A DNA stretch of 59,121 nt, taken from a virus. A program made the position numbers and the translations under genes. The stretch lies in the IMG/VR virus record IMGVR_UViG_3300025154_000106, positions 1 through 59,121 of that record; one strand, written 5' to 3'. Numbering within the stretch: the stretch's first letter is position 1; every line of letters starts with the position of its first letter. Below, in pieces: positions 13,874 through 57,000 of the stretch. The notes under the pieces were generated by a model that ran no database searches, had not been told where the DNA came from, and worked only from the letters and a program-made list of their open reading frames with translations.

Positions 13874-13893
13874 ATTTATAACAAGGAGGTTTC

Positions 13894-14292: not shown

Positions 14293-14293
14293 T

Positions 14294-14647: not shown

Positions 14648-14653
14648 ACCTAA
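14639..14653. repeat. Palindrome at the convergent gene junction
   Basis: TTAGGTTAAACCTAA overlaps the holin stop and lies between convergent operons. It may form a weak hairpin in both transcripts, but no U-tract follows. Confidence 0.5.
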
Positions 14654-14656
14654 CAA

Positions 14657-16184: not shown

Positions 16185-16873
16185 TACTTCTCCATCATGT
16201 TCGTACTGGATACTATCTTTGCTATGGCTGCCTCAATAAGATCATTCTTATCTCGCTGTGATACCAGCAACATTCCAACAACTTCTAACTGACTGCCCTT
16301 GCGTACAGATATTGCACCTGTAGTAAGACTGAGTTCAAGCATCATAGCAGTAGAGCTGGATGTTCTCTCGCCCCGGATGTCTCGCACAATCCCTCTGACT
16401 TCTGAGGATGTAGTTGCTTCTGCTACTCGTTCCCAATCTTCCCCACTCAACTGACCCTCACGTGCTGCTGCAGTAAGAAGAAGTAAAGACTTCATTGGCT
16501 TACCTTCAATACCCTGTTTGACTTCATCAGGTATCTCCGGGTTCTCAAACACAGCCTTCCACATATTGATATACTTGTATGCTGTTGAGTGTGCAATACC
16601 CATCTCTGTGTAGAAAACTTCATACATGTCATCTTCATAATTGAACATGCTTTCCCACACATCAGATACTCTTGACAAGAGCTTAGCCAACGCCAGCCCA
16701 CTCGCCTGAATATTTCTTTTGAGTGCACGACCCATAGCCATGATAGGTTGTATATCACCCTGAGCAACAGCCTGATCAACAGTAGTATCTACCATGTCAA
16801 ATACTTTTCTATCGCCTGGGGTAAGAACTACTGCCATATCCACACCAGTATTAAAGATCATATCTTCACTCAT
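16184..16873 (-). CDS. HTH DNA-binding protein in the replication operon
   Basis: A 229-residue acidic protein. The segment M-G-I-A-H-S-T-A-Y-K-Y-I-N-M-W-K (about residues 90-105) reads as a helix-turn-helix. A helical domain follows, and the C-terminal part is beta-rich. No family was recognised. It lies between the uracil-DNA glycosylase-like gene and RecA with overlaps on both sides, so it may be a replication or recombination accessory, and is one candidate reader of the dispersed palindrome. Confidence 0.5.
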   Translation of the reverse strand: MSEDMIFNTGVDMAVVLTPGDRKVFDMVDTTVDQAVAQGDIQPIMAMGRALKRNIQASGLALAKLLSRVSDVWESMFNYEDDMYEVFYTEMGIAHSTAYKYINMWKAVFENPEIPDEVKQGIEGKPMKSLLLLTAAAREGQLSGEDWERVAEATTSSEVRGIVRDIRGERTSSSTAMMLELSLTTGAISVRKGSQLEVVGMLLVSQRDKNDLIEAAIAKIVSSTNMMEK

Positions 16874-17364
16874 ACAATACCTCTTTTCAAACTCTTCAGT
16901 GCTAATCTAAACTCACCATTGTAGCCATTGATACTACCATACAGTTCCCCAGTAGCCACAACATTACCCTGTACACCCAATGATTTTATTCCACCCAACT
17001 GAATGCCCTGAATATCCTTAAGGTTTACACCTACCATACCCAGAACATTTGTTAAGGTATTACCTACCAATAGAATACCTTTTCTATTAATGAGAAGTTC
17101 AGGCATACATGTATTTACAAAGTGCTCACGTAAACATTCCTGAGTTGTATCAAGATGCGGATAGGCAGTAACCAATCGACAGGCAGTAAGCTGGATACCT
17201 ACACGTGCAAGTTCATAGGCAAGGAACTCTCCAACCTTTCCAGTAAAGGGAAGCCCAACCTTGAGATCATCATAGGATGGGTACTCTCCAACAATAAGCC
17301 AGTCAGCATTCTGTTTACCATTTGCCCTGACACTGTACCGATTACACGTTGGGCAGTTGTACAT
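16870..17364 (-). CDS. Uracil-DNA glycosylase superfamily protein
   Basis: A 164-residue protein with the family 4/5-like pattern GEYPSYDD (residues 26-33), GLPFTGKVGEFL and a later ILLVGNTLTNVLG. Cysteines C4 and C7 plus later cysteines could form an iron-sulphur or zinc site. Known relatives remove uracil from DNA. ATG 17364 has GGGAG six bases upstream; the ATG at 17391 has no site. Overlaps with both neighbours suggest co-translation in the replication operon. Confidence 0.7.
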   Translation of the reverse strand: MYNCPTCNRYSVRANGKQNADWLIVGEYPSYDDLKVGLPFTGKVGEFLAYELARVGIQLTACRLVTAYPHLDTTQECLREHFVNTCMPELLINRKGILLVGNTLTNVLGMVGVNLKDIQGIQLGGIKSLGVQGNVVATGELYGSINGYNGEFRLALKSLKRGIV

Positions 17365-17566
17365 CTGTATCTCCCATCTTAGCCTGTGCACCTATGGCTT
17401 TAGCCATGGCTACCCCGAACCAGTAAGCAGCTACAACCGCATCACGTTTTCGGGTAACATCTAACTTGTATGGTACACCCTGTGGAGTAATCATGTCTTT
17501 AGCTATGGCTGCCACGATCTGCTTGTACTGTGCATTCATCTGATCTTCATATTCTTTTTTATTCAT
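17342..17566 (-). CDS. Hypothetical small protein
   Basis: A 74-residue protein of mixed charge with an Ala-rich helix (VVAAYWFGVAMAKAIG). Its start overlaps the upstream stop by four bases (ATGA) and its end overlaps the glycosylase start. No family recognised; operon position suggests a replication accessory. Confidence 0.6.
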   Translation of the reverse strand: MNKKEYEDQMNAQYKQIVAAIAKDMITPQGVPYKLDVTRKRDAVVAAYWFGVAMAKAIGAQAKMGDTDVQLPNV

Positions 17567-17811
17567 CGTGCCCTCTCTAAGAATTCTTCTACTGTCAATT
17601 TATCTGAATAGGTTACATTCAACTGCAGTAATTCACTCAATCGTTCTGCAACCTGCACAATGTGGAATCTATCATTGGTTCGAAATACTCGAACAATCTC
17701 GTTCTTGTGAAGACCCCATGGTTCTTGATATATGTTTATAACAAACTCATCAGGCTCATCCTCCTGAATTATTATTCCAACTCTTATTGTTGCCCACATT
17801 TTCTCTCCCAT
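17563..17811 (-). CDS. Hypothetical small protein
   Basis: An 82-residue protein from ATG 17811 (GGGAG five bases upstream). An in-frame ATG at 17799 is equally well spaced, and a TTG at 17823 is less likely. It reads as mixed alpha/beta with an acidic loop EDEPDEFV. No family recognised. Confidence 0.55.
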   Translation of the reverse strand: MGEKMWATIRVGIIIQEDEPDEFVINIYQEPWGLHKNEIVRVFRTNDRFHIVQVAERLSELLQLNVTYSDKLTVEEFLERAR

Positions 17812-17813
17812 CT

Positions 17814-18077
17814 CTACTCCCAATACTTTCTTAGTGTTTCAAATATATCATCGCCATAAACCAGCTTCATGGCAGATGAGAATACCCAATGTTCCTCTTC
17901 GTCTAAGTCCATTGTTTCAGTAGTCATAACAGCTTTAACATATTCACTACAATGGTATCTTAATTCATTCATTGGACGAGAGGTAAACACACCTACTTGT
18001 GGGATACCCTTATCTACTTGTTCTAACTTTTCCTGTAGAATTTCAATTTGCTTTTTGATTTCTTCTTTTGTTGCCAT
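17814..18077 (-). CDS. Hypothetical small protein
   Basis: An 87-residue protein with an N-terminal coiled helix (KKQIEILQEKLEQV) and an acidic centre DLDEEEHW. It follows the DNA polymerase gene by two bases. No family recognised. Confidence 0.6.
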   Translation of the reverse strand: MATKEEIKKQIEILQEKLEQVDKGIPQVGVFTSRPMNELRYHCSEYVKAVMTTETMDLDEEEHWVFSSAMKLVYGDDIFETLRKYWE

Positions 18078-18079
18078 CT

Positions 18080-19801
18080 CTACTCCTTACATGCCCAGCT
18101 ATCCCCATGTCCTACCTCATAGATGAAAGGAACAGGAGAGTTTGGCACAGCTAATGCTACTGCATCTTTGAATGACTTATCTATTAGTTCTAAATAAGTG
18201 TCCAGTAATTCTTTTCTTACATCCAGTACAACCTCATCATGGATAAGCATGGTCAATCCAAAAGGTATACCTGCCTGCCTTGTGTACTCCAGTAAGAAGT
18301 ACGTCCATGGTTTCAGCATGTCAACCCCACCACCCTGATGTGGATAGTTCATACATGCACGTTCCCATCCATTGGAATGAATGTTGATATGGATTTTTCT
18401 GCCTGCTGGGGTACGTACATACTCATTCCTGTACCCTTCCTGTACCAGACGATCAACCATCCTCTTGACAGCAGGGAATTTCTTGAAGTAGTTATCAATA
18501 AACTCCTGACACTTCTCTACTGTCAGGTTCTCAATCTCTGGTGCTTTCTCTTTGAGGTTGGTATACAACCCATCTGCAGACAGACCATAAGCAATACCTA
18601 AGCCTACTTCCTTACCGATCTTTCTACGAGGATCAGACTTCTCTATCTCATCCAGTCCAAACAAAGTCTTAGCAACTGCACTGTGTACATCTTCTCCATT
18701 ATTGAAAGCAGCAATAAGGGTAGGGTCTTTGGATAGTAAGGCTGTAATCCTTGGCTCTTGTTGAGATACATCAGCTACTATGATTACCCCATCCTCACCA
18801 TACTTAGAGATAAAGAACTCTCTGAACACTGGCATCTTCCTTGATGGTATCTGCTGCAAGTTGGGGGAATTAGAACTCATACGACCAGACACAGCCCCCG
18901 TTACATTGAAGGAAGCCTGGACTAATCCATTCTCATCAGCATGTTTCTCTAACCATGACTCCCCGTATGTACTGACAGCTTTACGATAGGCTCGTGCTTC
19001 ACGTACTCCATCTACAAAAGGATGCCCAGCATGTTCAGCAAGGATTTCATCTCCAGTACTGTCAACCTTTATTCCTTCCTCAAGTAACCGTTGCTTAACC
19101 TGCTTGGGAGACATGACATTGACACCCAGCTGTGCCTCAAGGCTCTTGGCTTTGGAAGCATTGACTACTGACAGCTCTCGCCAGCGTACCTTATCTACCT
19201 TGACTGGGCTGAGGTTTACTACTACCCATACCATAGGGTTATCTATCTTTCCCAGCACAAAGTTAGACTTCTCATCTTCAGCTAATTGTTTGAACTGTAT
19301 TTCCTCTATCTTCCTTGTCCAGACTGCATCATCTATTGCATAGGCATTCAGTATGTCTGCATTGATGGTACGATCCTTGATGTCTTCGTACTTATCTTTC
19401 TCCAATACTACCCCGAAGTATCTGCGAACCATATCCTTCAGGGAAAAGTTAGTATAATACCCAGAGTATAAATCTTTCTCAGCCAGCATAGTATCATAGA
19501 TAGTATGCAGTGGGACACCAGGTCGTTGAATGTTACACAAAGCATTCAACTGGATAAGATCATACGTAGCATTCTGGAATACCCATACAGGCACATCCCA
19601 GAGTACATCCATTACAGGCTGCAGTAACTTGAGATCGTTGATCAGATAGTTTGTTCCATCTTCCATTGAGATAGAGAGACAAGCAAACGTACCATGTGGA
19701 ATGTGTAGTCGTTCCTTATCCTGGCCAAACATCTCCAAATCTATTGCAGCAAAGTTATTCTCCCCTATTACAGGGATTTCATTGACAGTGAAATCATTCA
19801 T
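18080..19801 (-). CDS. polA: Family A DNA polymerase with 3'-5' exonuclease domain
   Basis: A 573-residue replicative polymerase. The N-terminal DnaQ-like proofreading domain shows D21/E23 (AIDLEMF), D81 (NATYD) and D158. The polymerase domain has SGRMSSNSPNLQQIP, motif A VADVSQQEPRI (D344), motif B R393..K397...L401...Y405-G, and motif C HDEVV (D522). The 5'-nuclease domain of bacterial Pol I is absent, as usual for phages. L401 aligns with E. coli F762, a position often used to type phage polymerases. It lies in the leftward replication operon with helicase, primase and recombinase. A near-copy of the dispersed palindrome lies inside the gene at 19082. Confidence 0.95.
   Translation of the reverse strand: MNDFTVNEIPVIGENNFAAIDLEMFGQDKERLHIPHGTFACLSISMEDGTNYLINDLKLLQPVMDVLWDVPVWVFQNATYDLIQLNALCNIQRPGVPLHTIYDTMLAEKDLYSGYYTNFSLKDMVRRYFGVVLEKDKYEDIKDRTINADILNAYAIDDAVWTRKIEEIQFKQLAEDEKSNFVLGKIDNPMVWVVVNLSPVKVDKVRWRELSVVNASKAKSLEAQLGVNVMSPKQVKQRLLEEGIKVDSTGDEILAEHAGHPFVDGVREARAYRKAVSTYGESWLEKHADENGLVQASFNVTGAVSGRMSSNSPNLQQIPSRKMPVFREFFISKYGEDGVIIVADVSQQEPRITALLSKDPTLIAAFNNGEDVHSAVAKTLFGLDEIEKSDPRRKIGKEVGLGIAYGLSADGLYTNLKEKAPEIENLTVEKCQEFIDNYFKKFPAVKRMVDRLVQEGYRNEYVRTPAGRKIHINIHSNGWERACMNYPHQGGGVDMLKPWTYFLLEYTRQAGIPFGLTMLIHDEVVLDVRKELLDTYLELIDKSFKDAVALAVPNSPVPFIYEVGHGDSWACKE
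19082..19096. repeat. Dispersed palindrome, one mismatch (inside polA)
   Basis: AAGTAACCGTTGCTT. On the coding strand it reads AAG CAA CGG TTA CTT (K-Q-R-L-L). The single change to C avoids the in-frame TAA that an exact copy would create. Confidence 0.75.
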
Positions 19802-20018
19802 GTTGATTCCAGTCCCAAACTATTGTGTGCATTATTGGGGATACTACAGGTATCTCTTCTCCCTCTTTTACTTCACGGAGTTCTGGGTGCTCAACAACCA
19901 TTCCAAGTGTGTTGTCTGTAGAATCCAGCCAGACTTCTTCAATCGTAGTTTCTATTGGCATGCGTAGTACCTCCTTTAGGTAATCAATATCCAGCTTAAA
20001 TACTGCTAAGTTATTCAT
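19794..20018 (-). CDS. Hypothetical small protein
   Basis: A 74-residue acidic protein with an AAAGGAG site; its end overlaps the polymerase start by eight bases. It looks like a small alpha/beta protein. No family recognised; the overlap suggests translational coupling to the polymerase. Confidence 0.6.
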   Translation of the reverse strand: MNNLAVFKLDIDYLKEVLRMPIETTIEEVWLDSTDNTLGMVVEHPELREVKEGEEIPVVSPIMHTIVWDWNQHE

Positions 20019-20031
20019 CTTTCTCCTTTAT

Positions 20032-20232
20032 TTAATATGTATACCCACAAGAATCACACTCTCCTCTGTGGTACTCGTAGTCCATCCATGCTCTGTCCTT
20101 ATCCCAAAGAACAACTTGAGAAACTATGCCAGTTTCCTGCAGTTCATACTCAACTACCTCTGCTAGACTACAGTAGTAATCAAATAATCTCTGCCCTTCT
20201 GCACACAACTTCAACTCACCTTTTATTTCCAT
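20032..20232 (-). CDS. Small protein with C-terminal Cys pair
   Basis: A 66-residue protein with AAGGAG upstream. The last residues G-E-C-D-S-C-G contain a C-x-x-C that could bind metal with C10 or C21. No family recognised. Confidence 0.55.
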   Translation of the reverse strand: MEIKGELKLCAEGQRLFDYYCSLAEVVEYELQETGIVSQVVLWDKDRAWMDYEYHRGECDSCGYTY

Positions 20233-20240
20233 CTTACTCC

Positions 20241-21431
20241 TTACACACTGTTAAGATTGAACCAACCCCAGCTCTGGCTACCCCATGAAGCCTTGCCATC
20301 AAAGTCAACCTGTATTGCACCAACCCCACCCTCTTTGTATCCGAACCTTGACTTACCTATAATCAGATAGCCCTTGCCCGGTATGGCTGGTAGCCTGTCA
20401 TCAGAACCCTGAGTAGCAAAGATCTGATTGGGATTGTAAATCAGTATGATCAGTGCTCCCAATGCTTCTGCTAACCCTGAGTACCTGAGATGGTTGATCT
20501 TTGGTACACCACCTGTATAGTTTCTGTTCAGTTGACTGAGCAAGAATACTGGTGCTCCTGCTGTGTTCTTCTTAGCAAGGTTCGCACACTTCCTATACAC
20601 ATACGCCATTGATTGTTCATCTTCCTCCTTCTCTATAAGTAAGTCTGAGAAATCTATGAAGACTGCATACACATTCATGGTATTGCATAACCTCATAGCA
20701 TCAGCATAGACTTCATCTGCACTCATTATCTCTTCACAAATAATAACATGGGACTGTTGTTCTACTGTAAGCCCAGTCATGGAGACCTGTAAGATACGCC
20801 TTGCTATCTGTCCTGTTGTCATCTCTAAGGTATAGAGCAGAACTGTTTTCAATTGCTTAGCTAAGCCTGCTATGATCTTGGCAATCAAAGATGTTTTTCC
20901 CGTGCCAGGGGGGCCGGCTATGATGGTAAGACCTGACTCCGGTACACCTACCATGCTCATGTCTCCGGGATCTCCAAGGTGCTCATCAATAGGGGAGTAG
21001 TATGTCCGTCTCCAGATAGGAGAAGTATCCTCTACATCTGACATGCGTACATACTTACCCTTGTAGTCCTCTGTCTTATCCATCAGGGCTACGATCTTAT
21101 CTATCTGTATGTTCTCTCCACGTTCCAGTACCCTGATCTGATCCTTGAAAGTTTTGATCTGTTCTTCCCTACGATAGGCAGACATCAATAGCTTCAGCAA
21201 TTCCTCAATGGTATTCTCTGTGAACTTTACAGTATGGGCTGCCTCCCTTGCTGCCTGTATGGGTAACAGTCCTACAATATCTAGCAGCTCAGCAGGTGTC
21301 TTACCATCCTTGGTCTTGGAGATGATGATGTCGTAGGGTGCAGCAAGGTAAGATGGGATGACATAATCAGCAGACATCTTACCTTCCAGTACTAGCCCTG
21401 CACAGATCTCTGATATATCTGTATGCTTCAC
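20241..21431 (-). CDS. DnaB-like replicative helicase (RecA fold, superfamily 4)
   Basis: A 396-residue protein expected to unwind the replication fork. The C-terminal ATPase has Walker A GPPGTGKT (residues 173-180), LYTLEM and AVFIDFSDLL as Walker B, and LLSQLNR typical of DnaB/T7 gp4-type helicases. The N-terminal 150 residues are helical as in DnaB but shorter. It overlaps the upstream small gene by four bases. The CHC2 primase is encoded three genes upstream as a separate protein. Confidence 0.85.
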   Translation of the reverse strand: MKHTDISEICAGLVLEGKMSADYVIPSYLAAPYDIIISKTKDGKTPAELLDIVGLLPIQAAREAAHTVKFTENTIEELLKLLMSAYRREEQIKTFKDQIRVLERGENIQIDKIVALMDKTEDYKGKYVRMSDVEDTSPIWRRTYYSPIDEHLGDPGDMSMVGVPESGLTIIAGPPGTGKTSLIAKIIAGLAKQLKTVLLYTLEMTTGQIARRILQVSMTGLTVEQQSHVIICEEIMSADEVYADAMRLCNTMNVYAVFIDFSDLLIEKEEDEQSMAYVYRKCANLAKKNTAGAPVFLLSQLNRNYTGGVPKINHLRYSGLAEALGALIILIYNPNQIFATQGSDDRLPAIPGKGYLIIGKSRFGYKEGGVGAIQVDFDGKASWGSQSWGWFNLNSV

Positions 21432-21640
21432 GGTTGTTCCCTGATATGGTAGCCTATTTGTTGTAGACTAATTACTAGATCGTTGTATTTGTACTCAACA
21501 AGATACAGTCTGCCAAGTTCCATCCTCATCCTAGCATTCTCGCTGATCAATTCTTCATACATGTTTTCTTTGTTGTAGTGCTCAAGCTCTAACCAATACT
21601 CAATGGGTTTACCTAAGAATATATCACCAAAGTTATTCAT
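21428..21640 (-). CDS. Hypothetical small protein
   Basis: A 70-residue mostly helical protein, overlapping the helicase start (ATGA) and the upstream gene by eight bases. No family recognised. Confidence 0.55.
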   Translation of the reverse strand: MNNFGDIFLGKPIEYWLELEHYNKENMYEELISENARMRMELGRLYLVEYKYNDLVISLQQIGYHIREQP

Positions 21641-21839
21641 CTTCTATCTCCGAGATGTCTACCAGATCTACCAGCACAGTCCCACCTCTCCACAGCTTAT
21701 CCCATATTCCATGGTCACTGCTGTTCTTACTCCAGAACATATCTGTTTTCACAATAGCAGCAGGGAAACCTTCCTCATCCTGTATCTCTGTTATCTCCCA
21801 GTAACCTGCTATCTTTCTTGGAACTAATTTTATAATCAC
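21633..21839 (-). CDS. Hypothetical small protein
   Basis: A 68-residue protein that looks beta-rich and ends in an acidic segment SEIEDE. It overlaps the primase stop by four bases. No family recognised. Confidence 0.55.
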   Translation of the reverse strand: MIIKLVPRKIAGYWEITEIQDEEGFPAAIVKTDMFWSKNSSDHGIWDKLWRGGTVLVDLVDISEIEDE

Positions 21840-22678
21840 AGTACACTCCTTATTGCATTGATCATAGATTGTCCATACCCCTCAAGGTATAGATCATTCG
21901 GGTCTTTACACTCAGAGGGATAGGGGTACTCTACTACTCTACCTCTCCATCCCAGCTTACGGTACATGTCCCTGGCTTTCCCTTCTTCATCCTTATCAGG
22001 AAAGAATACAATAGGTTTCCTTACCCAGTCCAGTAGATTTAGATTGATTGTCTTACCATAGATAGATGACGCTGCAGGTATCCTCATCTTGGTAAGGGTA
22101 ATGGCATCCAAGATACCAAATGTAATTACTAAGTAATCACCCCTCCTTGCCAAGTACCAGTCAGGAAAGTATAGGCCAGCTGTACTCTTGATGACATAGC
22201 GTAGACCTGTAGCCTGTTGGATGTGCTGACCTGCCCTCAATACCATGCCCTTGTAAGCATCATCATAGTCATAGGTAGGGAAGGTATACCATCCGTTGTA
22301 CCATCCTATCTTTTGGGGTAGGATCTGATCTTCAATACCTCTCAGCCTTAGATACCATGCCAGACTTTCAGAGAACCTTACTAAGGTTTCGTGCGCATCC
22401 ATGGCAAAGTACTCTGAGTTGGTAGGGATGGGGGGTATGTGGTAATCGGTTACTTCTTGTCTGATCCTATGGCTGGTAGTTGTCCAGCCATGCAGTACCT
22501 TGTGTAAGGTATGTAAATCACCACTTTTCCCACACCCCAGACACTTGAACCACCCATCCTTGAACAAAAGAAAGGAAGGTTTTGTATCATCATGGAAGGG
22601 ACATAACGCTGAGTAATACTTCTCATACTCTTTGAGTTGTTGTAGCTTAGGCAGTACTTGAGATAGTGTTATCTTCAT
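21836..22678 (-). CDS. DNA primase with CHC2 zinc finger and variant Toprim domain
   Basis: A 280-residue primase. The zinc finger is C26, H29, C46, C49 (CPFHDD...CLGCGKSGD). The Toprim region has G188..D191 (FGILDA) and D228-K-D230 for metal binding. The glutamate normally preceding that glycine is F187. It is much shorter than DnaG and lacks a helicase-interaction domain. Neighbouring DnaB-like helicase and polymerase complete the replisome. It overlaps both flanking genes by four bases. Confidence 0.85.
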   Translation of the reverse strand: MKITLSQVLPKLQQLKEYEKYYSALCPFHDDTKPSFLLFKDGWFKCLGCGKSGDLHTLHKVLHGWTTTSHRIRQEVTDYHIPPIPTNSEYFAMDAHETLVRFSESLAWYLRLRGIEDQILPQKIGWYNGWYTFPTYDYDDAYKGMVLRAGQHIQQATGLRYVIKSTAGLYFPDWYLARRGDYLVITFGILDAITLTKMRIPAASSIYGKTINLNLLDWVRKPIVFFPDKDEEGKARDMYRKLGWRGRVVEYPYPSECKDPNDLYLEGYGQSMINAIRSVL

Positions 22679-23052
22679 TGTATTGGTTCTAAATCCATAA
22701 CTGAATCAGGAAAGAATGAGAAGATACCAAAGGTTTGATTGCTTGCTTGTGCACTGAATAACCAACCATTCATTTCTATCTTAGTATTAGTAAGACTTAC
22801 ATCTTCTAAAGGATTAACTGATTCATACGATTCAACATACTCTTTAGCTCGTTCAAACTTATCTGTATAGTATGGTACAGATGCTGCTTGAATGATGATA
22901 ACGAACCCGAATATTACTATTAAACACACACTGAAATACTGCACAAAAAAGTACTCATTATATTCATCAAGTACCCTGGTAGCAATATAAACTGCGAGCA
23001 GAAAACCAACAACTAAAATCCATCCTAACATAATAAGTATGGGGCAGAGCAT
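22675..23052 (-). CDS. Two-span membrane protein
   Basis: A 125-residue protein with two hydrophobic segments in the first 60 residues (around ILIMLGWILVVGFLLAVY and VCLIVIFGFVIII), then a soluble domain with E-R-A-K-E-Y-V-E-S-Y and FGIFSFFPDSV. ATG 23052 is preferred over the in-frame TTG 23082. It may tether replication or other factors to the membrane, but no function is known to me. Confidence 0.6.
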   Translation of the reverse strand: MLCPILIMLGWILVVGFLLAVYIATRVLDEYNEYFFVQYFSVCLIVIFGFVIIIQAASVPYYTDKFERAKEYVESYESVNPLEDVSLTNTKIEMNGWLFSAQASNQTFGIFSFFPDSVMDLEPIQ

Positions 23053-23074
23053 TACACCCTGCCCCTTCTCCTTT

Positions 23075-23869
23075 CTATTCAAAACCTAGCTTAGCAAGTA
23101 GAGCTACAATCTCTTCCTTGTCCTTACCCTCTGCAGTTTGAGCAGCCTTGCGTAGTTGATCAATAGCAGGGTTGGGGCTGACAACTTCCTCTTTAGCTGG
23201 AGGTTCAGCTGGTTCAACAACTTCTGACTCATCATCAGGTGCTGGAACAATAGTGTCTACCCATCCCTTGTTATTGAGACTAATCACGACTGTCTTATCT
23301 TTCTTCAATAACATCTTCTCAACATACGGAAGTACATTCTCACTGAATGGGATGTCGTCAGCCCCAAAGTCTACACCCAACACCTGTAAGAAGTCTTCCA
23401 ATTTCTGTGACCCATCACCCTTGATCATGGTTATCCCATGCTCGTACTCGAGGAAAGCATAGAATAAATTGTTACTGATCTGATATTTCTTCCATTTCTT
23501 TGGGGATTGAATTTCAAACAGAGCAGTAAACTCAAGATGTTCTGGGATTTTGTATGGCTTTCCTGCACCTGACGTACCAGTCCTTGCATCAACTTTCTTT
23601 GCTACTGGTGGCTCACCTTCACGAGACCAGAAACCAATAAACTTGCAGAAGTATGAACCACCAATAGGTTTGGCAGAAAAGATTTTGTTGTTGTCTCCCG
23701 ACAACACTACGATCTGGCGACCTGAGATCATGTAGTCTGGTGCATCCTCACGAATTACATCAATGACCTGACCGCCTTCTTCAAACTCAACACGTACTCT
23801 ACTGGAAGTAACCGTTACTTCGGCTACCCCACTCGCACCCTTACCACCACGTACAACTGGAATAGGCAT
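23075..23869 (-). CDS. Possible ssDNA-binding or recombination mediator-like protein
   Basis: A 264-residue protein. Residues 1-140 look beta-rich (VEVTVTSSRVRVEF, IVVLSGD, YFCKFIGF), the middle is mixed, and an acidic Pro/Glu linker precedes a short C-terminal helical domain DQLRKAAQTAEGKDKEEIVALLAKLGF. An OB-like N-domain with acidic tail fits single-strand binding proteins, but no family was recognised. The dispersed palindrome lies within codons for V-T-V-T near residue 17. Confidence 0.35.
   Translation of the reverse strand: MPIPVVRGGKGASGVAEVTVTSSRVRVEFEEGGQVIDVIREDAPDYMISGRQIVVLSGDNNKIFSAKPIGGSYFCKFIGFWSREGEPPVAKKVDARTGTSGAGKPYKIPEHLEFTALFEIQSPKKWKKYQISNNLFYAFLEYEHGITMIKGDGSQKLEDFLQVLGVDFGADDIPFSENVLPYVEKMLLKKDKTVVISLNNKGWVDTIVPAPDDESEVVEPAEPPAKEEVVSPNPAIDQLRKAAQTAEGKDKEEIVALLAKLGFE
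23806..23820. repeat. Dispersed palindrome, exact copy inside a gene
   Basis: Exact AAGTAACCGTTACTT. The coding strand reads it in the frame GTA ACG GTT ACT (V-T-V-T), which allows an exact copy with no stop. Confidence 0.9.
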
Positions 23870-23883
23870 TACAATCTCCTCAT

Positions 23884-24243
23884 CTAAAATGTTTTACTTC
23901 TACCACGAAACTCGTTGTAGTTCTCCTCAATTGCTGAGGCCAGCTGATCAGCTATCATTACTGAACCACGGGGGGTCAGTACGATAATGTCCTGATCTTT
24001 ATAATAATGAACCACTTCACTCAGAGGTATAGTAACTTCAACATAGATATGGTTGACTGAATAGCCCATGCCATAGGGTTTGTACTGTACTCTGTCTGGT
24101 GAAAGTTGACCCATTGGTAGATAGATTGATACTGATTCATTCTCTTTGTTTACCCGTACCTTGCGGATGTCAGTCCACGTATCATTTGTATAAGTGGAGG
24201 TAACAAAGCAATCTTCATTGATTGGATCTTGATTTTCAGACAT
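23884..24243 (-). CDS. Hypothetical protein
   Basis: A 119-residue, apparently beta-rich protein (VSIYLPMGQL, IYVEVTIPLSEV, DIIVLTPRG) ending in an alpha helix. It precedes the OB-like protein by 14 bases. No family recognised. Confidence 0.6.
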   Translation of the reverse strand: MSENQDPINEDCFVTSTYTNDTWTDIRKVRVNKENESVSIYLPMGQLSPDRVQYKPYGMGYSVNHIYVEVTIPLSEVVHYYKDQDIIVLTPRGSVMIADQLASAIEENYNEFRGRSKTF

Positions 24244-24308
24244 TAGTTATTTCCTTTCGTAGATATAAGCTGATACCATTACGGTCTTGCCAGTATATGT
24301 TAGGGTAA

Positions 24309-24491
24309 TCATCTCCTTCCGTTTACAGATTCTTTCCAAGCAGTCATGGCTTCGATAGCCTTATCGACATCTGGTTCGGAGAGCCTGAGCTGTGGGTTAG
24401 ACCACGTACCGAACTTCATGTGCATCACGACTGCATCTTGGCTGGTTGTATCCCAATCAATACTAACTTTTGTTTTTATTAATTCATCCAT
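24309..24491 (-). CDS. Hypothetical small protein
   Basis: A 60-residue protein whose start overlaps the helicase stop by one base. It has a beta strand region followed by a helix DKAIEAMTAWKES. No family recognised. The 65 bases between it and the next gene show no clear signal. Confidence 0.5.
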   Translation of the reverse strand: MDELIKTKVSIDWDTTSQDAVVMHMKFGTWSNPQLRLSEPDVDKAIEAMTAWKESVNGRR

Positions 24492-26032
24492 TATTCTCCT
24501 ACTTGTAGTAAATCATTCACGGGTATGTCATCAAAGTTTATGACCTGTCCCAATACTTCTTGTTTCTTCTGTATGATCTGATGTATGCGGTCATCTATTG
24601 TACCCTTGGCTATGATGTAGTGTACCGTAACGGGATTGACTTGACCTATCCTATGGATACGTGAGTATACCTGTTCCTCTTTACCGGGACTCCACGATCT
24701 CTCAACAAAGATAAGAGTTGAGGCTGAGTAAAGGTTGATCCCTTCCCCACCTGCCTCAGATATAATAGCTACCCGTACATCTGGATCATTCAGGAATGTA
24801 GAAACTAAATCATTACGATCTTTCTGTGGTGTATCACCAACAATCTTTATCATTTTATAATCTTTTAGTTTCTTTTCCAACTCTGCCACCACTGCTTTGT
24901 GTATGGCAAACAGCACTACCTTCTCACCACCATTCAATACTTCCTCAGCTAACTCAACGCCCGGCTCTACCTTGAGCATACCAATAGCCTGACGTACAGC
25001 CATGAACCGTTGGGAGTTAGACTTAGACTTGGTATCTTCTGTTGCCAGCTTGAGTGCATCGAAGTATTGTGTAACCAGTTTCTCAGTCTCACTGATGTAC
25101 GGGAAGTAGTTCTTTGTTACAGGTGGGAGATCTTTCAATACTTCCTGCTTCGTTCTGCGTAACATGATATGACTTAGCTTTTCTTTTAGTTCAGGTAAGT
25201 TGTCAGCCCCATCAAAGTCCCAATGTCCGAAGTGATCTTGCTTAGCATCACAGTATCTATGTGCAAACTTCCAGAAGGAACTCCACACGGTGGGAAGCAG
25301 TAAGTTTAGTATTGGGAATAATTCTTTTGGTCTATTGAGGAAAGGTGTACCTGATAATCCTATTACATTTGGTGCATTCAATAAGCGTGAGGCTCGTGAT
25401 CTCTGTGATCTCATGTCCTTGAGGTAGTGTATTTCATCATAGATAACCAGATCAAAACTGAAACCTCTCATCATGTATACCCTGTTAGTAAACACAGGAT
25501 AAGAACAGATCAATACTCTTGGTTTGTTATTGAAATCTTTTGTGAACCCCTGAATAACTTCTGAGTCCCATCCCAACCACTCCTTGATCTTCTCCTTCCA
25601 CATGTATGTTACACTGGCTGGACTGACTATCAATACCTTGGCTGGTGCTGTCTCTTCCATGTATGCCAGGGTTTGGATGGTCTTCCCTAACCCTGGATGG
25701 TCAGCTAACAATGCCCTACCACCTGAAGCATGAAGGAACTCAAGTCCCTCTACCTGATAGGGGTACAGTTTTGTACGTGATGTCTTGGTAACCTTATGAT
25801 TGTTACGGGATAACTTCAGTGTAACTGCATCAATAAAGAAACCATACTCACGTGCGAAGGAAGCAACAAACAAAGCGTGCATCTTGGTGGGGGGTAAGTA
25901 CCATAACTTTTCATCACCATCAAAACGTGCATCAGGTATTGCTTTTACTTTTTCTTTCAGTCCATTTGAATAGGGGAACTCTAATTCTATTCTATATTTT
26001 TCAGGATTATAAGTGATCGCCTTTACTGTCAT
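24491..26032 (-). CDS. SNF2-family DNA helicase/translocase
   Basis: A 513-residue superfamily 2 ATPase. Motif I HPGLGKT (residues 112-118), motif II DEIH (199-202), motif III LSGTPF, LRRTKQEVLKDLP, and the C-terminal SEAGGEGINL and QVYSRIHRIGQ (motifs V and VI) are all present. The N-terminal 85 residues look like a HARP-type small domain, as in SMARCAL1-like phage helicases. ATG 26032 has GAGAGG upstream; earlier in-frame ATGs lack a site. First gene of the leftward replication operon; its role is probably fork remodelling or strand annealing. Confidence 0.85.
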   Translation of the reverse strand: MTVKAITYNPEKYRIELEFPYSNGLKEKVKAIPDARFDGDEKLWYLPPTKMHALFVASFAREYGFFIDAVTLKLSRNNHKVTKTSRTKLYPYQVEGLEFLHASGGRALLADHPGLGKTIQTLAYMEETAPAKVLIVSPASVTYMWKEKIKEWLGWDSEVIQGFTKDFNNKPRVLICSYPVFTNRVYMMRGFSFDLVIYDEIHYLKDMRSQRSRASRLLNAPNVIGLSGTPFLNRPKELFPILNLLLPTVWSSFWKFAHRYCDAKQDHFGHWDFDGADNLPELKEKLSHIMLRRTKQEVLKDLPPVTKNYFPYISETEKLVTQYFDALKLATEDTKSKSNSQRFMAVRQAIGMLKVEPGVELAEEVLNGGEKVVLFAIHKAVVAELEKKLKDYKMIKIVGDTPQKDRNDLVSTFLNDPDVRVAIISEAGGEGINLYSASTLIFVERSWSPGKEEQVYSRIHRIGQVNPVTVHYIIAKGTIDDRIHQIIQKKQEVLGQVINFDDIPVNDLLQVGE

Positions 26033-36070: not shown

Positions 36071-36436
36071 ATGAATGAATGTAAGTTATGCGGAAGTAAG
36101 CCAATGAGTATCTATCATTATGATGGGACACACAAAAGAAATCCTGGAACTGGTTGTACTAATCCACATTGTCCACTGTATGAGGCAGAGTTATCTGAAG
36201 ACGAGTGGGAGAAGTTGATGAGTACTGCAGAACTCCCCAGACTATGGCTGAAAGTCGGACAAGATTTGAAGCATGATTGTAATGTCTATCTGGTAAGTGA
36301 AGATTCAGAAGGATGGATTGGATTCTTTTCAACGTACGGACAGGCCAAGGATCACGCTGAGTTCTTTTCCAAAATGTTTGGTGGAATCCCTATTGAGTAC
36401 TATGAGGAAGTTATTGTAGTAAGAGAAAAGAAGTAA
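36071..36436 (+). CDS. Zinc-ribbon protein, Lar-like N-terminus
   Basis: A 121-residue protein with AAAGGAG. The N-terminus CKLCGSKP...CTNPHCPLY resembles the zinc ribbon of restriction-alleviation (Lar-like) proteins; the C-terminal part has WIGFFSTYGQAKDHAEFF. First rightward gene after the gene-free region. Its last bases carry the -35 of the RNA promoter at 36414. Confidence 0.55.
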   Translation: MNECKLCGSKPMSIYHYDGTHKRNPGTGCTNPHCPLYEAELSEDEWEKLMSTAELPRLWLKVGQDLKHDCNVYLVSEDSEGWIGFFSTYGQAKDHAEFFSKMFGGIPIEYYEEVIVVREKK

Positions 36437-36442
36437 TATAAT
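36414..36442 (+). promoter_or_regulatory. Promoter of the candidate small RNA
   Basis: TTGTAG (36414-36419), 17-base spacer, perfect TATAAT (36437-36442). Predicted start near 36449, just before the ACCCGGC stem. Confidence 0.55.
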
Positions 36443-36448
36443 AAGATC

Positions 36449-36576
36449 AATAGTACCCGGCAGGCTTAGGACTCCACAAGAACATGGGAGAAACCGCCGA
36501 CCGAGCCGGGTCGTCTCTGCTCTGTCTCAACAGGCATCAGAATTTCCCCTGCCAGTATTGGTGGGGGTTTCTTATT
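36449..36576 (+). ncRNA. Candidate structured small RNA (about 125 nt)
   Basis: A gene-free stretch bounded by a promoter and a terminator. ACCCGGC (36455-36461) can pair with GCCGGGT (36505-36511), enclosing a CTCC/GGAG hairpin. A further CTGT-CTCA-ACAG hairpin follows near 36520-36531, then the terminator. No open frame with a ribosome site is present. It does not match a known RNA family I can recall. It might be regulatory or decoy RNA. Confidence 0.45.
36546..36576 (+). terminator. Terminator of the candidate small RNA
   Basis: CCCCTGCCA (36546-36554) pairs with TGGTGGGGG (36559-36567) with two G-U pairs and loop GTAT, followed by TTTCTTATT. Confidence 0.7.
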
Positions 36577-36604
36577 AACTCTTACGCATTAAGATGACCA
36601 TACA

Positions 36605-36720
36605 AACTATACATTTTTGTATAGTATATGCAATCGGATTGCCAAACTGTACAATAAAACCCGTCCAAAGTGCATAGTAACTCGTCATTCCTTGCACTTT
36701 AGTGTGAAACTCCCACATTA
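36605..36720. repeat. Two inverted repeats in the gap before 36876
   Basis: ACTATACA and TGTATAGT around a T5 loop near 36605-36625, and AAAGTGCA and TGCACTTT around about 20 bases near 36669-36705. Apart from these and the AAACTCTAAT element, I see nothing in 36577-36875. Confidence 0.5.
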
Positions 36721-36805
36721 TTCCTTTGAGTTCTGTGATGATCTACACGGAATACGTTTGTGTTTTGTGTACAATTTGTTCAGTACTGCTGATTAAATTG
36801 TAGGG

Positions 36806-36852
36806 AAACTCTAATCTGGTTCTAATATAATCAGGATTATTAAACGTATAAT
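36806..36852 (+). promoter_or_regulatory. AAACTCTAAT element with -10 boxes upstream of 36876
   Basis: AAACTCTAAT (36806-36815) lies 41 bases before TATAAT (36847-36852). The same 10-mer is at 41321, 42 bases before TATTAT, and at 40746. It may be an activator site or an upstream promoter element. Confidence 0.45.
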
Positions 36853-36875
36853 TTGTATATAGAAAGGAAGGTAAG

Positions 36876-37208
36876 ATGAACATAATCAAGATTGTAGTGG
36901 ATGGTGATCTACCGATAAGATGTGCATATTGTGACATACCGCTTAGATTGTGTATAAATAAAGTTAGCATGACACTAAACAGAACGGCTCTGCTTGAAAT
37001 GGAAACCCGCCCCTCATGGTGTCCGCTTGTTGTTGAGGATGTGTGCAGGTATGTTGGTGAATATGGTGGGTGTGACGAGCATGGAGATATGATTTTCTTT
37101 TCAAGAAAAACTGGATGTAGTGATGAACATATCCAAAAGATCATTGTACCAGATTATAAATTTTGTCCAAATTGTGGTAGGCCTGTCAAGTATGTGGAGG
37201 TGGAGTAA
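36876..37208 (+). CDS. Zinc-ribbon protein
   Basis: A 110-residue protein with AAAGGAAGG. Two Cys pairs near the start (CAYCDIPLRLC) and a C-terminal FCPNCGRPV suggest zinc binding. The pattern IRC..CD.PL...(R)..CPL is common in small Gram-positive phage proteins of unknown role. Its stop overlaps the next ATG by one base. Confidence 0.6.
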   Translation: MNIIKIVVDGDLPIRCAYCDIPLRLCINKVSMTLNRTALLEMETRPSWCPLVVEDVCRYVGEYGGCDEHGDMIFFSRKTGCSDEHIQKIIVPDYKFCPNCGRPVKYVEVE

Positions 37209-37997: not shown

Positions 37998-38110
37998 CCC
38001 ACTTCTGGATTGGCTTCGTCTGGTTTGTTATCGGAGCATTTGTAGGAGCAGTAGCTATGTCTTGGTTTGTTGCTGCTGGGAATGACGATATGAGAGCAGG
38101 GAGAAAGTAA
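37994..38110 (+). CDS. Small single-span membrane protein (38 residues)
   Basis: ATG 37994 overlaps the upstream stop (ATGA), and its TAA overlaps the next ATG (TAATG). It encodes a Gly-rich membrane helix (IGFVWFVIGAFVGAVAM) and a basic end RAGRK. The double coupling makes it credible despite its size. Confidence 0.65.
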   Translation: MTHFWIGFVWFVIGAFVGAVAMSWFVAAGNDDMRAGRK

Positions 38111-38760
38111 TGGCAACTATATTGATTATCAGTAACAATGCTTATCTTGCAGCGTTGGTAAAGAAGACCATGTTATATGAAGGACATGATGTAGAGATAG
38201 CCTATGATCTAATATCAGGAAAGGATCTGTGTGTAAAGTCTACCCCGGACTTGATCGTTACAGATTGGGAAACATTTCAGATATGTGCATTTGATTACAT
38301 CAAGAAAGTAAGCTCAGCTCCTGTTATTGTTATGATGGAAAACCCACGTTATGCTATTACTGAAGAAGTAGTCTGGTGTTTGAATGATGGTGCTGATGAT
38401 GTTGTCGAGTTTCCTTTTCATCCTGCAGAACTGGCGGCCCGTTCCCGTGCACTATTACGAAGACATGCTAATAAGAAAACTTTACAGGTAGGAGATCTAA
38501 ACCTTTCATGGAAAGGACAGCTGCATTATACAGACAGGACTATCATTCTTACTGCCAGAGAGTTTGACTTATTGAAAGTCTTTATGCTACATCCGGGCCA
38601 GGCTCTGTCAAAAGAATTGTTGTCAACCAGTGTATGGGGGGATACGTATGGAATGGACAGTAAGCAGCTGGATATTTACATAGGAAGGTTGAGAAGTAAG
38701 ATAGGAAGTGATAAGATAAAGTCTATACGAGATTATGGTTGGATGCTGGAGAACAAATAA
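38110..38760 (+). CDS. OmpR/PhoB-type response regulator with degenerate receiver
   Basis: A 216-residue protein with a full receiver-plus-winged-helix layout. The receiver keeps the fold pattern and D52, but the acidic pair is S8-N9-N10, the Thr is M76 and the Lys is F101, so normal phosphorylation is unlikely. The DNA-binding half (LTAREFDLLKVFML, VWGDTYGMDSKQLDIYIGRLRSKIG, IRDYGWML) is intact. It would be a phosphorylation-independent transcription regulator. Rare in phages. Start overlaps the previous stop. It is one candidate regulator of late or host genes. Confidence 0.8.
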   Translation: MATILIISNNAYLAALVKKTMLYEGHDVEIAYDLISGKDLCVKSTPDLIVTDWETFQICAFDYIKKVSSAPVIVMMENPRYAITEEVVWCLNDGADDVVEFPFHPAELAARSRALLRRHANKKTLQVGDLNLSWKGQLHYTDRTIILTAREFDLLKVFMLHPGQALSKELLSTSVWGDTYGMDSKQLDIYIGRLRSKIGSDKIKSIRDYGWMLENK

Positions 38761-51011: not shown

Positions 51012-54000
51012 ATGGTAGATGCCTTTTGGAAAACCGGACAGTTTGCTCAGTTGCTCAGTGCTGTACGAGAACAACGAGCCAAACAGTCTGCTATAAACAA
51101 CTATGCCTCCACATTTACTCAAGCAGTAAATAAATCGAAAACAGAAAAGCCTCCTGTAGATCCAAACAAGAAGGCTTTATTTGATTGGGGTCAGCGTACC
51201 TATGGAGTAAAGATACCTACCCAAACAGTAGATCCTGCTTTGAGGTTGGATGATAGAAAGCAAGCGTTACTTCACAACCAGTTCTTTGCTGATAAGCGAG
51301 TTGCTGACAGCATTGAACAGGCAAGAATAAGTGCATGGCAGAGAGACCAGACTTTCAAAAGTCAACAGGTAAAGAAAGATGTTCTTACTGGTAAGATAGA
51401 GAAGCCAGCTGGTCAAACTTTTGAAGAGTGGAATCAAGCAAGGCTGGAAGAAGAGAATGCTCTGGCAGCCAGCATCAAGTTCGATCCTGAACTAAAGCCT
51501 GGGGATAAATTGTATCTGGACTACAAACAAAATGTAGTAACCAACAAACCAACAGAGCTTGAGCTATTCAAGTACATGGGAGTTTACATTCCTGTTGAGA
51601 GAAACAAGGCAGGAAACTTAAGCTACCCTGAAGGATACGAAGATCTTGTTATTGATATGACCAAGCTGCAGGATGCTACCTATACACCAGAGGTAGATAT
51701 ATTCCTGCGTGGGTTAGAGTCCAAGTATGAAACAGCCAAGCCCCCAACTTTTGCTTCAAACATACAACCAACCGGGACACCAGCTTACTTGAATGTCTTG
51801 ACAAACGAGATAACAAATGATCAAACTCAGATCCCGTTGTATTGGGATCAGGATACAAAACAAGTTACCCAGTTTGAAGAAAACTATAAGGGTGAAAAGA
51901 ATAGTCCAGTTGTTCTAAATCAAGAGACATTGGATTCTCTTGGTACTGGATTACAACAGGCTATGCAAGTATACATAGCCAACGAACAGAACGCTGACTG
52001 GGGTGTAGGGTCTAACCCTGCAGCAGTATCCATGATAGCCCCTATTGTTACCAGAGAGAACGTATTGGATGGAGTAACAGTTAGGTTTCCATCTGCTACC
52101 AACCAACAGGAAACACAAACAGTAAACTTAGATCCAGTTACTAACGCACCAACCTTCTTAGAAAAGTTCCCAGAGAAGCCTGAGTTCATTAGAAATCTTC
52201 CTGAGCCATTGAGTAATGGATTGGCAGCAAACATATTCAGTGCCACCTGGTGGGAAGTAATGTGGGGTGGTAATGTAACCAAGCAGTTGATGAATACCCC
52301 AACAAGTAAGTTTATGAGTAAGCCAATATTGGGTACAGTATCCTTGAATACGGTTATGGCTGGAGCTGGGGTAGGCTTTACTCTTCTATATAATATACCT
52401 ACAACTCTAGTGAGACAAACGACCTGGCTATTTGGAAATGAGAAGGCTGGAGAAGACTTAAATAATTCTTGGGAGAACTTTGAAGATAAGCTAAGCGTAC
52501 TTCGACAAAGTTACAATATGGACAAAGCTAAGTCCATAAACAAGAATGAAACAAAGACCAACCAGATAGATGAAGCCAGAGCTACTACTCAGTCTATCAG
52601 TGAAGAGTTAGTGAAGTGGAGAAGCGGAACAGTAAAGGGATGGGACAAGTTATCTGATCAACAGAAGGTAACCCGTATTGCTGATCTGGAAGCTCAATGG
52701 GAAAAGTCATTGGAGTATGAAGCAGCCTTAAATAAACTCCAGGCAGACACCATTGGAAAGTTCTCAGAACAGGCTGGGTATTCTGCACAATATTACCGGG
52801 CTGGCAATCTTCCAGTAGCCACAGCTGAATTAGCTTACGGGTATGAGAAGTTGTACGAAGGGGCAGACTGGAATTTAGCCAAGCAATATGCTGGTTCAGT
52901 AAAAGAACACATGTTCACTCCTAATCTGCTTGATCTTCAGAATCGTGGAAGAATACCACAGGAGCAAATACACTTTATGTTGGGTGTACGTGGAATGTCA
53001 GAGCCTGAGATTTCATCTTTTGAACAGTTCATCAACAGCGGATATGTTACTTCCAATATCTTATCCAATGTAGACAATGATACGAAAGCATCCATGCAGC
53101 GTAACCAGACTACAACTGTGTTGGGTGCGAACATGTTATTCCTGCAGGATGTAGCCAAGAAGTCTATTGAGACTGGTCGTACTATGACTACGGCAGAGCA
53201 GTATGATTATCTTGTAGATGAGTGGTTACCAAAGTATCTATACAATTCAGCTACTAACCCCAAGAGGTTAGAGAATACTTACTACAATACTAACCAACAA
53301 CTAACCGCTGACATGGCGAATACAATGTTCCAGCAGTTACAGGTATCCAATAATTATCTGGCCATGGCCAGTCAATATGAAGAAGGAAGCCCAGAGCAGC
53401 AGGAAGTATTGAATAATGCCAAGACATGGATGGATGAGGCTTACCGATTAGGGGATAGAGTAATTGAATACCACTCCAGATCTGGTAATCTCAATCCTTA
53501 TGCAGCATGGACATATAATTTGAGTGAGGAAAAGAAGAACGAGTTCAGGAAGAATGTAGTAGAAGCTATGTTCCAGGCTGGAAGACTTCTTTCAATGGAA
53601 GAGATAACACAGATCTCCTACATTACGCAAGACCCAGCGTTAGAAATGTTGGGTGAGATATTCTTAGATGTAAACAACCTTGCACTCCCTATAGTTGCCG
53701 GGCTGAGTAAGTCATTGATAAAGAGCTTGGGTAGAGTAGCTATGAAAGTTCCATTCATAGGTAAATCTGCTACTGCAATCTCAAACAATACTATAGTAAA
53801 GACTTTACTTGATCGTTCAGTACAGACTGTAGCTTCAAAGCAGGGCAAGGCAGCTACAAATATCTTCTGGTCTGTTGCTCAGACCAAGCCAGCTACTGAA
53901 TCAGAGTTTGTAAAACAGGTATCCAATATTGCAGCATGGGCAAAGCAAGCTACCACAGTAACAGATGAGTTGACTGAAGGTGCAGCTAAGCTATTGAAAG

Positions 54001-57000
54001 AGACTCCATTCAGGGGTGTACCACCAACCATTTCTGCACAGGAGTCATTGATTCAATTAGCCAGAACTATTGATCCAGATGAGTGGGCAGGAATAGCAGC
54101 CAAGGCATGGGAAGCTACACATGAATTCTATGTCAAGGGTGTAACCAAACAAATACTAAGTCAGAACCCAGGCAAGCTGATAAGTGATCCAGTCATAGCC
54201 AATAATATTTCTGATGCAGTGGAGAGACTGGTAGCAAGTTACCGGGGAACATCAAGACTTGGGCAGGAATTTGGTGAGGCATTCAGACAGACATCCTTAC
54301 GAGGAAACCTTGTGAAGTTGGGATCAAACTTAGTTCCTAAAGATACTATCTATGGTGCTATTGCACAGAAATATGGTACTACCAGAGCAGGACAGTTGCT
54401 GGGTGGTATTGCTGAGGTTCAGTCCCGGTTTATGAAAGCATGGATCTGGGCTACGTTAGCTAGACGACCAGCGTGGGCTATCTTCAACTTCGTTGACAAT
54501 ACATTCAGATATACAATGGCTTCAATTCGGTATGGTGGTCAGTTCGGGGATGATATGAAAGCCATGTTGAAAATGTATGGAGATACCGAAGGGGTAATGA
54601 AGACCGTCAAGCAGGGTCAATACAATGTCAAGGCTGAGATAGAAAGTTCTGGGTTGATGAGCTTGACAGATGAGGCGTTTACCAAAGCTGCATCCATGGG
54701 TATTGACAAGAACATGCTCAGCCAAAACCCGTTGTCCTTCCTATCTTATTATAAAAGTTTTGTACAGATAAATGGCACAGGTAAGAACCTGTTAGGTAAA
54801 GTTCTTGGTACTTTCACAGCTTTCCCTGCCAGCATCAAGGCATTGAACAACTCTATTGAGATGGGCATGAAGACTATGATGTACATTCGTTTCTATGAAA
54901 AGAACATAGCCAAGATGAATCATCTCTTCCTTACAGATGTAATAAGTCATCTGTCTGAAGTAGTACAGGCTAAGGGTCTAAGTGCTATTGAAGCAGACAT
55001 GATCCAGAAGCACGTATTGAATTCTATTAACAGTTCAGGTGGGAATGCTGCCAAACTGTATGACTTATTGAGACACAATAGAGTAGATCCAAAGTTATCT
55101 GGATACAATATTTATATCCCAGAGAGCTTAAGAAATGCTGAGTGGTTTGATGAGGCTGCACAGAGAGCCTTCCTTTATGATGTAACTACACGCTTCCAGA
55201 AATTCCAGGCAAGGTTAGCTAAGAGTAATGTTAAAGAAATCTTGCCAGAACACCTTGATCAATTCTTTGATGAGACACTGAGTGTACTCCAGGCAGAATC
55301 CAATATGATTGTGCAGGGGATGAACAGGGATTACTCCATTGTAACTGGTGCAGAGATAGGATCGAATGGAGAGCAAGTAAAAGCTGCTCGCTATTCTAAA
55401 TCCATAGAGAAGGAACTAAAGGGTGTAGATAAGGATACTGCAGATTTCTTAAAGAATCTGGATGATAGCAAACCTTTTGACAGAAAGACTAAGGGTAAGA
55501 TCAAGAAGTATCTACAGGACAATGACATCAAGTTTGAAGATACAGATGAAGGGTTGAAGGATGGTCTTGCCAAGTTACGAGCAAAGAGAGATGAGTACCC
55601 TGACAGCCAACCACGTGCTGCAACCCCAGAAGAACTCAAAGCTATTGATGAGAATAAAGAAGGGGTGCTTACTAACAGTGAAGAGCTTACTGGTTGGGAT
55701 GCTAACGTTCACAGTGCTGATGATAAGGTTTCTGGAAAATGGAATGAGAGAGCACTCTGGGAATCCAAGACACATGAAGCAATTGCCCAGATAGAAAATG
55801 TAAAAGGCTTTAGTGGATTAACCCCAGCAGAACTTACAAAGCTGCAGAGTATAGCAAAGGGTATGCTAGATAGAACAAACAACATTAGCTCCAGGGTAAA
55901 CAAATTCTTTAGGGAAGTCTACCCCGGCCCAGGCATGATCAACAATAAAGCAAGATGGGAGGATTACTATGCAAGAGTAATCAATCAACTTGACAACCGT
56001 ATTGGATACCAAAACGCAGAAGTATTAGTTCCTCTACAGAACGGAACATTAAAAGCTACTGCAGATGTGAACATGGAAGATATATTACAGCTGTCTGGTA
56101 TTGAACTGCTCTATGATACAGATGGAATGATTACTTCCTTCCGTGCTATCAACCCATTCAGTGGGAAGCCAGAGCTGGTTGAGAATACTGTATTTGTAAA
56201 CCAACTCAAGAGACGGTTGGGTATCAATACAAAGGCAGACGCACGTAGAGGATTGGTAGATGACTACTTCAAGATAAAGGGGCAAGCTCCTGTTGGAGAG
56301 ATGGAACGTATCAACATAGCTTACAGTTTGAAAGTACCAGAAGTCCGACCACTCGAAACCATGGTAGCAGATGATGTAAGACTTGACCTGGCCATACGTG
56401 AGGGAAGAAATCAGGATGCTGCAGTATTGTTGGCAGAGAAATTCCAGTTCCCATTGATGTATGAGAAGGGTGGACAGTTACTTCCCAACTATGCACACCT
56501 ATTGAACAAGGCTAAGAAAGAATTAGGATTGAAGGGTGATGATGCAATCAAGACATTGAATGACATCAAGCCTGAAGATCTATATAAAGTTTTGAAGAAC
56601 TGGTATGAAACAACTACTGGCGTTACACTTGCCAGCATAAAGGGAAACCTGAAAGAGGGAATGGTAAAAGCCATTTCAAATATTTTCAATACCCCAACCA
56701 ACATAGCTGAGGGAATATTTGAAACCTACAACAGACTTGCCCTTACTATTGGTAAGCACATGGGTGGTAAGAGTGAGGCTGAGGTATGGCAGGATGTTCT
56801 GTATGGTGTAATGAAAGCAGGAGATTCTGGTGCAGTAGATGTAGTTCGTGCAACAGATACTTTATTCTGGTTCAACACAGAGGTTAGAAACTATGTTACC
56901 AATCTTGTCGGTAATGGTAAGGTAGTCAAGGGAATAAAGAGACCCATTACTAAAGCTGAACTTCTCAAGGCTCTCAAGAAACGATTCAATCAGGAACGCT

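Follow-up and report, generated by a model that had tools for sequence, protein, structure and literature searches.

The window analysed in this study is the complete IMG/VR virus record IMGVR_UViG_3300025154_000106, a stretch of 59,121 nucleotides (nt), and the element in question is a putative small RNA gene at positions 36414 to 36576. A preliminary description, made from the sequence alone, had proposed a TTGTAG-17-TATAAT promoter, a long-range ACCCGGC/GCCGGGU stem with inner hairpins and a strong terminator, all in a gene-free gap. The promoter (36414–36442), the stem with an inner hairpin and the terminator were all present. The gap is gene-free as far as the RNA itself is concerned, but the −35 element and the spacer overlap the 3′ end of an open reading frame (ORF) at 36071–36436. 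The parts of the element are listed below.

36414–36419, plus strand: −35 element TTGTAG, read in the sequence, within the 3′ end of ORF 36071–36436
36437–36442, plus strand: −10 element TATAAT, read in the sequence, with a spacer of 17 nt to the −35 element
36448–36454, plus strand: 5′ leader CAAUAGU, identical in the related phage L008
36455–36461, plus strand: 5′ strand of stem P1, ACCCGGC, at the start of the covariance model match 36455–36511
36463–36465, plus strand: 5′ strand of stem P2, GGC, preceded by the unpaired A36462, from the model alignment
36466–36495, plus strand: apical part, UUA and hairpin P3 with the loop AGAACA, from the fold
36496–36498, plus strand: 3′ strand of P2, GCC, from the model alignment
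36499–36504, plus strand: 6-nt bulge GACCGA on the 3′ side (UACCGA in L008, CACCGA in the bacterial locus L244 beside AbiD)
36505–36511, plus strand: 3′ strand of P1, GCCGGGU, with seven base pairs (bp) to ACCCGGC, from model and covariation
36518–36536, plus strand: second hairpin UGCUCUGUCUCAACAGGCA, from the fold, without counterpart in the bacterial RNAs
36546–36576, plus strand: intrinsic terminator with a 9-bp stem and U-rich tail, CCCCTGCCAGTATTGGTGGGGG at 36546–36567 followed by TTTCTTATT

Judged from these signals, the sigma-70-type promoter would yield an RNA of ~127 nt that ends at its own terminator. The promoter was missed by a promoter scan because its −35 element shares just three of six bases with the consensus. 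No tRNA or tmRNA was identified by ARAGORN. An encoded peptide was also rejected, as the 37-residue ATG frame at 36484–36597 crosses the terminator, no such frame was found in L008, and the only AGGA upstream of it is distant.

The related phage L008/G001, 60 kilobases (kb) in length, is collinear with the window after circular permutation. Its core-gene proteins are mostly 55–80% identical to those of the window phage, and the identity of the terminases is 77%. No DNA-similar copy of the RNA was found in L008/G001. Its early rightward region contains the arrangement TTGTAA-17-TATAAT-5 nt-CAATAGTA, after which come a GC-rich RNA and a terminator. The promoter geometry and the 5-nt gap to CAATAGTA were thus equal in the two phages, and the motif was unique in each genome. 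The sequence TATAATAANANCAATAGTA had 59 matches among viral contigs, of which those of the window phage and L008 were the only ones to lead into a GC-rich, terminator-bearing RNA. In both phage RNAs a perfect 7-bp stem begins at nucleotide 8, which 0.5–0.8% of shuffled sequences also showed, and ACCGA directly precedes the 3′ strand of P1. P1 itself differs at five paired positions between the two phages.

The terminase relatives found in species genomes were all from Chloroflexota, suggesting this phylum as the host group. A search of 298 Anaerolineae-class (Chloroflexota) genomes with the L008 RNA returned three weak matches, which was about the chance expectation, and the short DNA matches in these genomes were at the expected level with the exception of L244. 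At L244, TTGTAA is followed after 16 nt by TATAAT and, 12 nt further, by the 7-bp stem ACCCACC/GGUGGGU, with CACCGA ahead of the 3′ strand of P1, then a U tract and then a gene. This match was accepted as real because the promoter, stem, CACCGA, U tract and gene are independent features. The product of the downstream gene matched Pfam Abi_2 (E = 5e-42), PADLOC AbiD (E = 6e-83) and the solved PbAbiF structure 8vz6 (E = 1e-24). The L244 RNA was matched over its full length by the Rfam abiF family RF03085, with 26.5 bits (E = 0.0033), under the 37-bit cut-off. Among 400 Chloroflexota genomes there were seven Abi_2 matches, of which three further loci (L249, L250, and L251) had such an RNA between promoter and gene. 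The distance from the −10 element to P1 was 11–12 nt at all six loci compared, so that the abiF RNAs of the Chloroflexota loci and the window RNA are alike in starting 11–12 nt past a sigma-70-type −10 element. At L244, L249, L250, and L251, the P1 hairpin directly enters the U tract.

Three covariance models were used: R1 from the RNAs of L008 and L244, R3 from four bacterial RNAs upstream of Chloroflexota Abi_2 genes, and R2 from the R3 set plus L008. The R3 scans of the two phages were run with filters off. With R3, positions 36455–36511 were the top match when both strands of the 59-kb window were scanned (21.3 bits, E = 6e-4; next match 13.2 bits, E = 0.18), the L008 RNA was the top match in the 60 kb of its phage (24.6 bits, E = 6e-5; next match 12.3 bits, E = 0.35), and with R2 the window RNA scored 21.8 bits (E = 0.0009), all of these E-values being rough owing to a short calibration. 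R1 did not find the window RNA, probably because of its short loop. In the alignment of six RNAs, all 60 pair cells were standard and six of the ten pairs were changed on both sides, including five of the seven P1 pairs; the P2 pairs were all kept. The covariation score was reached by none of 500 shuffles, and slid controls paired at 30–42%. The apical part is longer in the window RNA than in the other five RNAs, and the bacterial L251 RNA also possesses a UUAA bulge and a P3. The preliminary description had not recognized the fold and had named the lack of covariation, together with the lack of a transcript, as what would refute the RNA. Covariation was found, and the core is that of the AbiF antitoxin RNAs as represented by R3. 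The broader suggestion of a structured and often regulatory phage RNA is partly supported: the second phage, the covariation and the covariance model favor a structured RNA with promoter and terminator of its own, whereas the core points to an antitoxin mimic and not to a generic regulator.

AbiF/AbiD toxins are widespread, are regarded as ancestors of Cas13 and are restrained by RNA. In Clostridioides difficile, the AbiF RNA RCd22 binds its toxin directly and so neutralises it, in cis as well as in trans; destabilising its stem abolished neutralisation, and changes that preserved the pairing retained it (PMC12373285). For PbAbiF, nucleotides of a single-stranded RNA bulge are reported as inhibitors of the RNase (PMC12737573). 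Similar to the abiF RNAs (RF03085; RCd22, AbiFr), the window RNA has the order P1, A, P2, 5′ bulge, apical hairpin, P2′, 6-nt 3′ bulge and P1′, and this architecture is borne out by the top R3 match and the standard pairs. Different from them, it has a longer apical hairpin, a GACCGA bulge instead of the CAAAUC type, an additional hairpin and a separate terminator downstream, no abiF/abiD gene after it and no RF03085 score. No match to RF03085 was obtained at the gathering cut-off of 37 bits or, with 601 nt, at E ≤ 5, and the Rfam search suggested by the preliminary description returned chance matches only. Abi_2 (PF07751) was not found downstream of the window RNA or elsewhere in G000, G001, G003, G004, G005, and G006, and the control genome G084 was positive. 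The window RNA was therefore not filed under RF03085, as neither the score nor the neighbouring gene supported it. What the phage encodes is an antitoxin-like RNA without its toxin, as in a phage RNA mimic.

Taken together, assignment of the window RNA to the AbiF-type RNA class is well supported, and we consider it quite probable that the element is an orphan RNA antitoxin of the AbiF type, acting in trans to neutralise the AbiF toxin of a host. The 5′ module, with its 7-bp P1, unpaired A, 3-bp P2, apical hairpin and ACCGA-type 6-nt 3′ bulge, reproduces the architecture of RNAs located immediately upstream of abiF/abiD. Once transcribed, the RNA would bind the AbiF/AbiD HEPN RNase of the host, or of mobile elements of the host, and hold it inactive during infection. 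With AbiF/AbiD inactivated, abortive infection would fail and infected cells would not kill themselves. A host-side AbiF/AbiD is the most likely target, since the phage carries no recognisable toxin gene. The GACCGA bulge may be the counterpart of the inhibitory bulge of the PbAbiF RNA, and the extra hairpin and separate terminator are consistent with a free-standing RNA. The phylum of the AbiF loci found is also that of the terminase relatives, Chloroflexota, which was counted in favor of this interpretation.

Several results weigh against it. RF03085 gave no match to the window RNA even in a search of 66 nt at E ≤ 10. The R3 alignment was fitted with R1, itself built partly on L008, and thus leans towards the structure. 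A 910-kb scan with speed filters kept the L008 RNA and lost the window match, with the best unrelated match at 14.4 bits. Outside the motif, the bodies of the two phage RNAs could not be aligned above chance (p = 0.83 local, 0.76 global). The minimum free energy (MFE) structure of the window RNA places two P2 bases with the CC of the bulge and not with GCC, which is better by 2.4 kcal/mol, and that of L008 favors a competing hairpin by 2.0 kcal/mol, with a predicted P1 probability of ~0.01. In the more distant relative G004 (72% identity in the capsid protein) no such RNA was seen, nor was one in other relatives.

The RNA might instead be what remains of a full AbiF toxin-antitoxin module: an ancestor would have had both genes and lost the toxin, leaving the RNA to drift. 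Abi_2 genes are known in phages (74 records), and the abiF gene and RNA of C. difficile are located in a prophage (PMC12373285). Drift would break pairs, however, and promoter spacing, pairing and terminator are kept in two phages, whose proteins are mostly 55–80% identical, despite the five changes at paired positions of P1; a relic is therefore unlikely. We regard as equally improbable that the likeness to AbiF RNAs is coincidental and that the element acts as a trans-acting antisense RNA, or as a leader or attenuator, for phage or host genes. The free 5′ leader, which is identical in both phages, and the position of the RNA and terminator in an early rightward gene block would suit such a role, but R3, built from bacterial RNAs only, places both phage RNAs at the top of their genomes. 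Moreover, sites complementary to the leader were not located at shared genes, and TATAAT motifs near the start of the gene after the RNA suggest that this gene has a separate promoter of its own.

An association of the RNA with a replication origin or a DNA structure is suggested by the adjoining repeat-rich stretch. AT-rich non-coding sequence with inverted repeats lies at 36580–36876 in the window and at 2600–3110 in L008, both with a AAAACCCGTCCAAA(G/T)TGCATA element, and it is a candidate for an origin or a control region. The two phages differ, however, in how RNA and repeats are ordered, and such an association leaves the conserved core and the match to AbiF-linked RNAs unexplained, which makes it very unlikely. 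That promoter, stem and terminator occur together by chance, with no functional RNA, is hardly credible. A bare descriptor of P1, A, P2 and bulge does give ~5 chance matches per window, and the stability of the fold is ordinary for this genome: although the 141-nt stretch has z = −2.9 against dinucleotide shuffles, composition-corrected 120-nt windows at the locus rank only 683rd to 1195th of 5902 genome-wide. Stability alone is thus insufficient, and it is the conservation of the promoter that lifts the locus above chance, together with the full covariance score and the double changes that keep the pairs.

The orphan antitoxin proposed here has a precedent in pseudo-ToxI of phage PhiTE, an RNA that mimics the type III antitoxin of ToxIN and protects PhiTE from this system (PMC3475682). 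The proposed logic would be the same, a toxin-less phage copy of an RNA antitoxin directed against abortive infection. The antitoxin of ToxN, ToxI, is however of a short tandem-repeat kind, whereas the window RNA is a bulged hairpin with a proposed AbiF/AbiD HEPN RNase as target, and the function of pseudo-ToxI was shown experimentally in PhiTE, whereas that of the window RNA is proposed by analogy. An abiF-type RNA is also present in cyanophage S-CREM1, with 51.6 bits to RF03085 and an unconfirmed role (PMC9964418, PMC12197685). Different from the window RNA, it matches RF03085 and belongs to another phage and host group. New in this study is a divergent, toxin-less AbiF-type RNA, conserved with covariation in two phages whose hosts are probably Chloroflexota, together with its counter-defence interpretation; no description of an orphan AbiF RNA as counter-defence was found in the literature searched, with subscription papers outside its scope. 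Stand-alone AbiF antitoxin RNAs that evolve fast may well serve phages of Chloroflexota-type hosts as dedicated genes for counter-defence, forming an RNA-only class of HEPN-family inhibitors. If so, the AbiF/AbiD family would have a natural inhibitor in the toxin-less phage RNA, and the counter-defence mechanism could be tested directly.

Such RNAs can fall below the Rfam threshold through divergence, and their phage-borne copies are probably under-counted. The distribution given here is a lower bound, as the searches of the collection required exact words or close relatives. A canonical abiF RNA query of 59 nt had no match across the phage collection. BLASTN of the window RNA against phages returned short, unrelated pieces, and the pattern GGGAGAAACCGNCGANCNAGC had a single chance match, within a gene of L005. 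Lactococcal phage sk1, cited for an AbiF-protecting DNA region (reference in PMC12737573), gave no abiF RNA match.

Among the bacterial loci, the L244 contig contains ParA-like and recombinase-like genes and, judged from the translations, resembles a mobile element. ParA-like and recombinase-like genes are also found on the L246 contig (G084, 15498 bp), where an abiF-type RNA and abiD lie next to genes for a helix-turn-helix protein and an IrrE-type peptidase. At ~2360–2440 (minus strand) of L248, a more divergent hairpin, formed by AGUCGAGCAG/CUGCUCGACU and enclosing an inner stem, lies directly upstream of a second Abi_2 gene and is possibly another variant of the AbiF RNA. The early region of phage G004 contains at L209 4040–4345 a tRNA T-arm-like sequence, AGGGUUCGACUCCCUU, and several hairpins, without a match by ARAGORN or Rfam.

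Beside the RNA in the window, the protein of ORF 36071–36436 had no match in Pfam and PHROG searches, and the next gene, 36876–37208, had none in Pfam. Further downstream, at 38110–38760, is a response-regulator-like phage gene that has a Trans_reg_C domain for DNA binding and, more weakly, a receiver domain. A giant ORF of ~4250 codons was found at 13076–25831 of the reverse complement of G001. Its counterpart in the window consists of two pieces, 51012–59121 and 1–1341, so the record was apparently cut inside this ORF, as in a circular or permuted genome.
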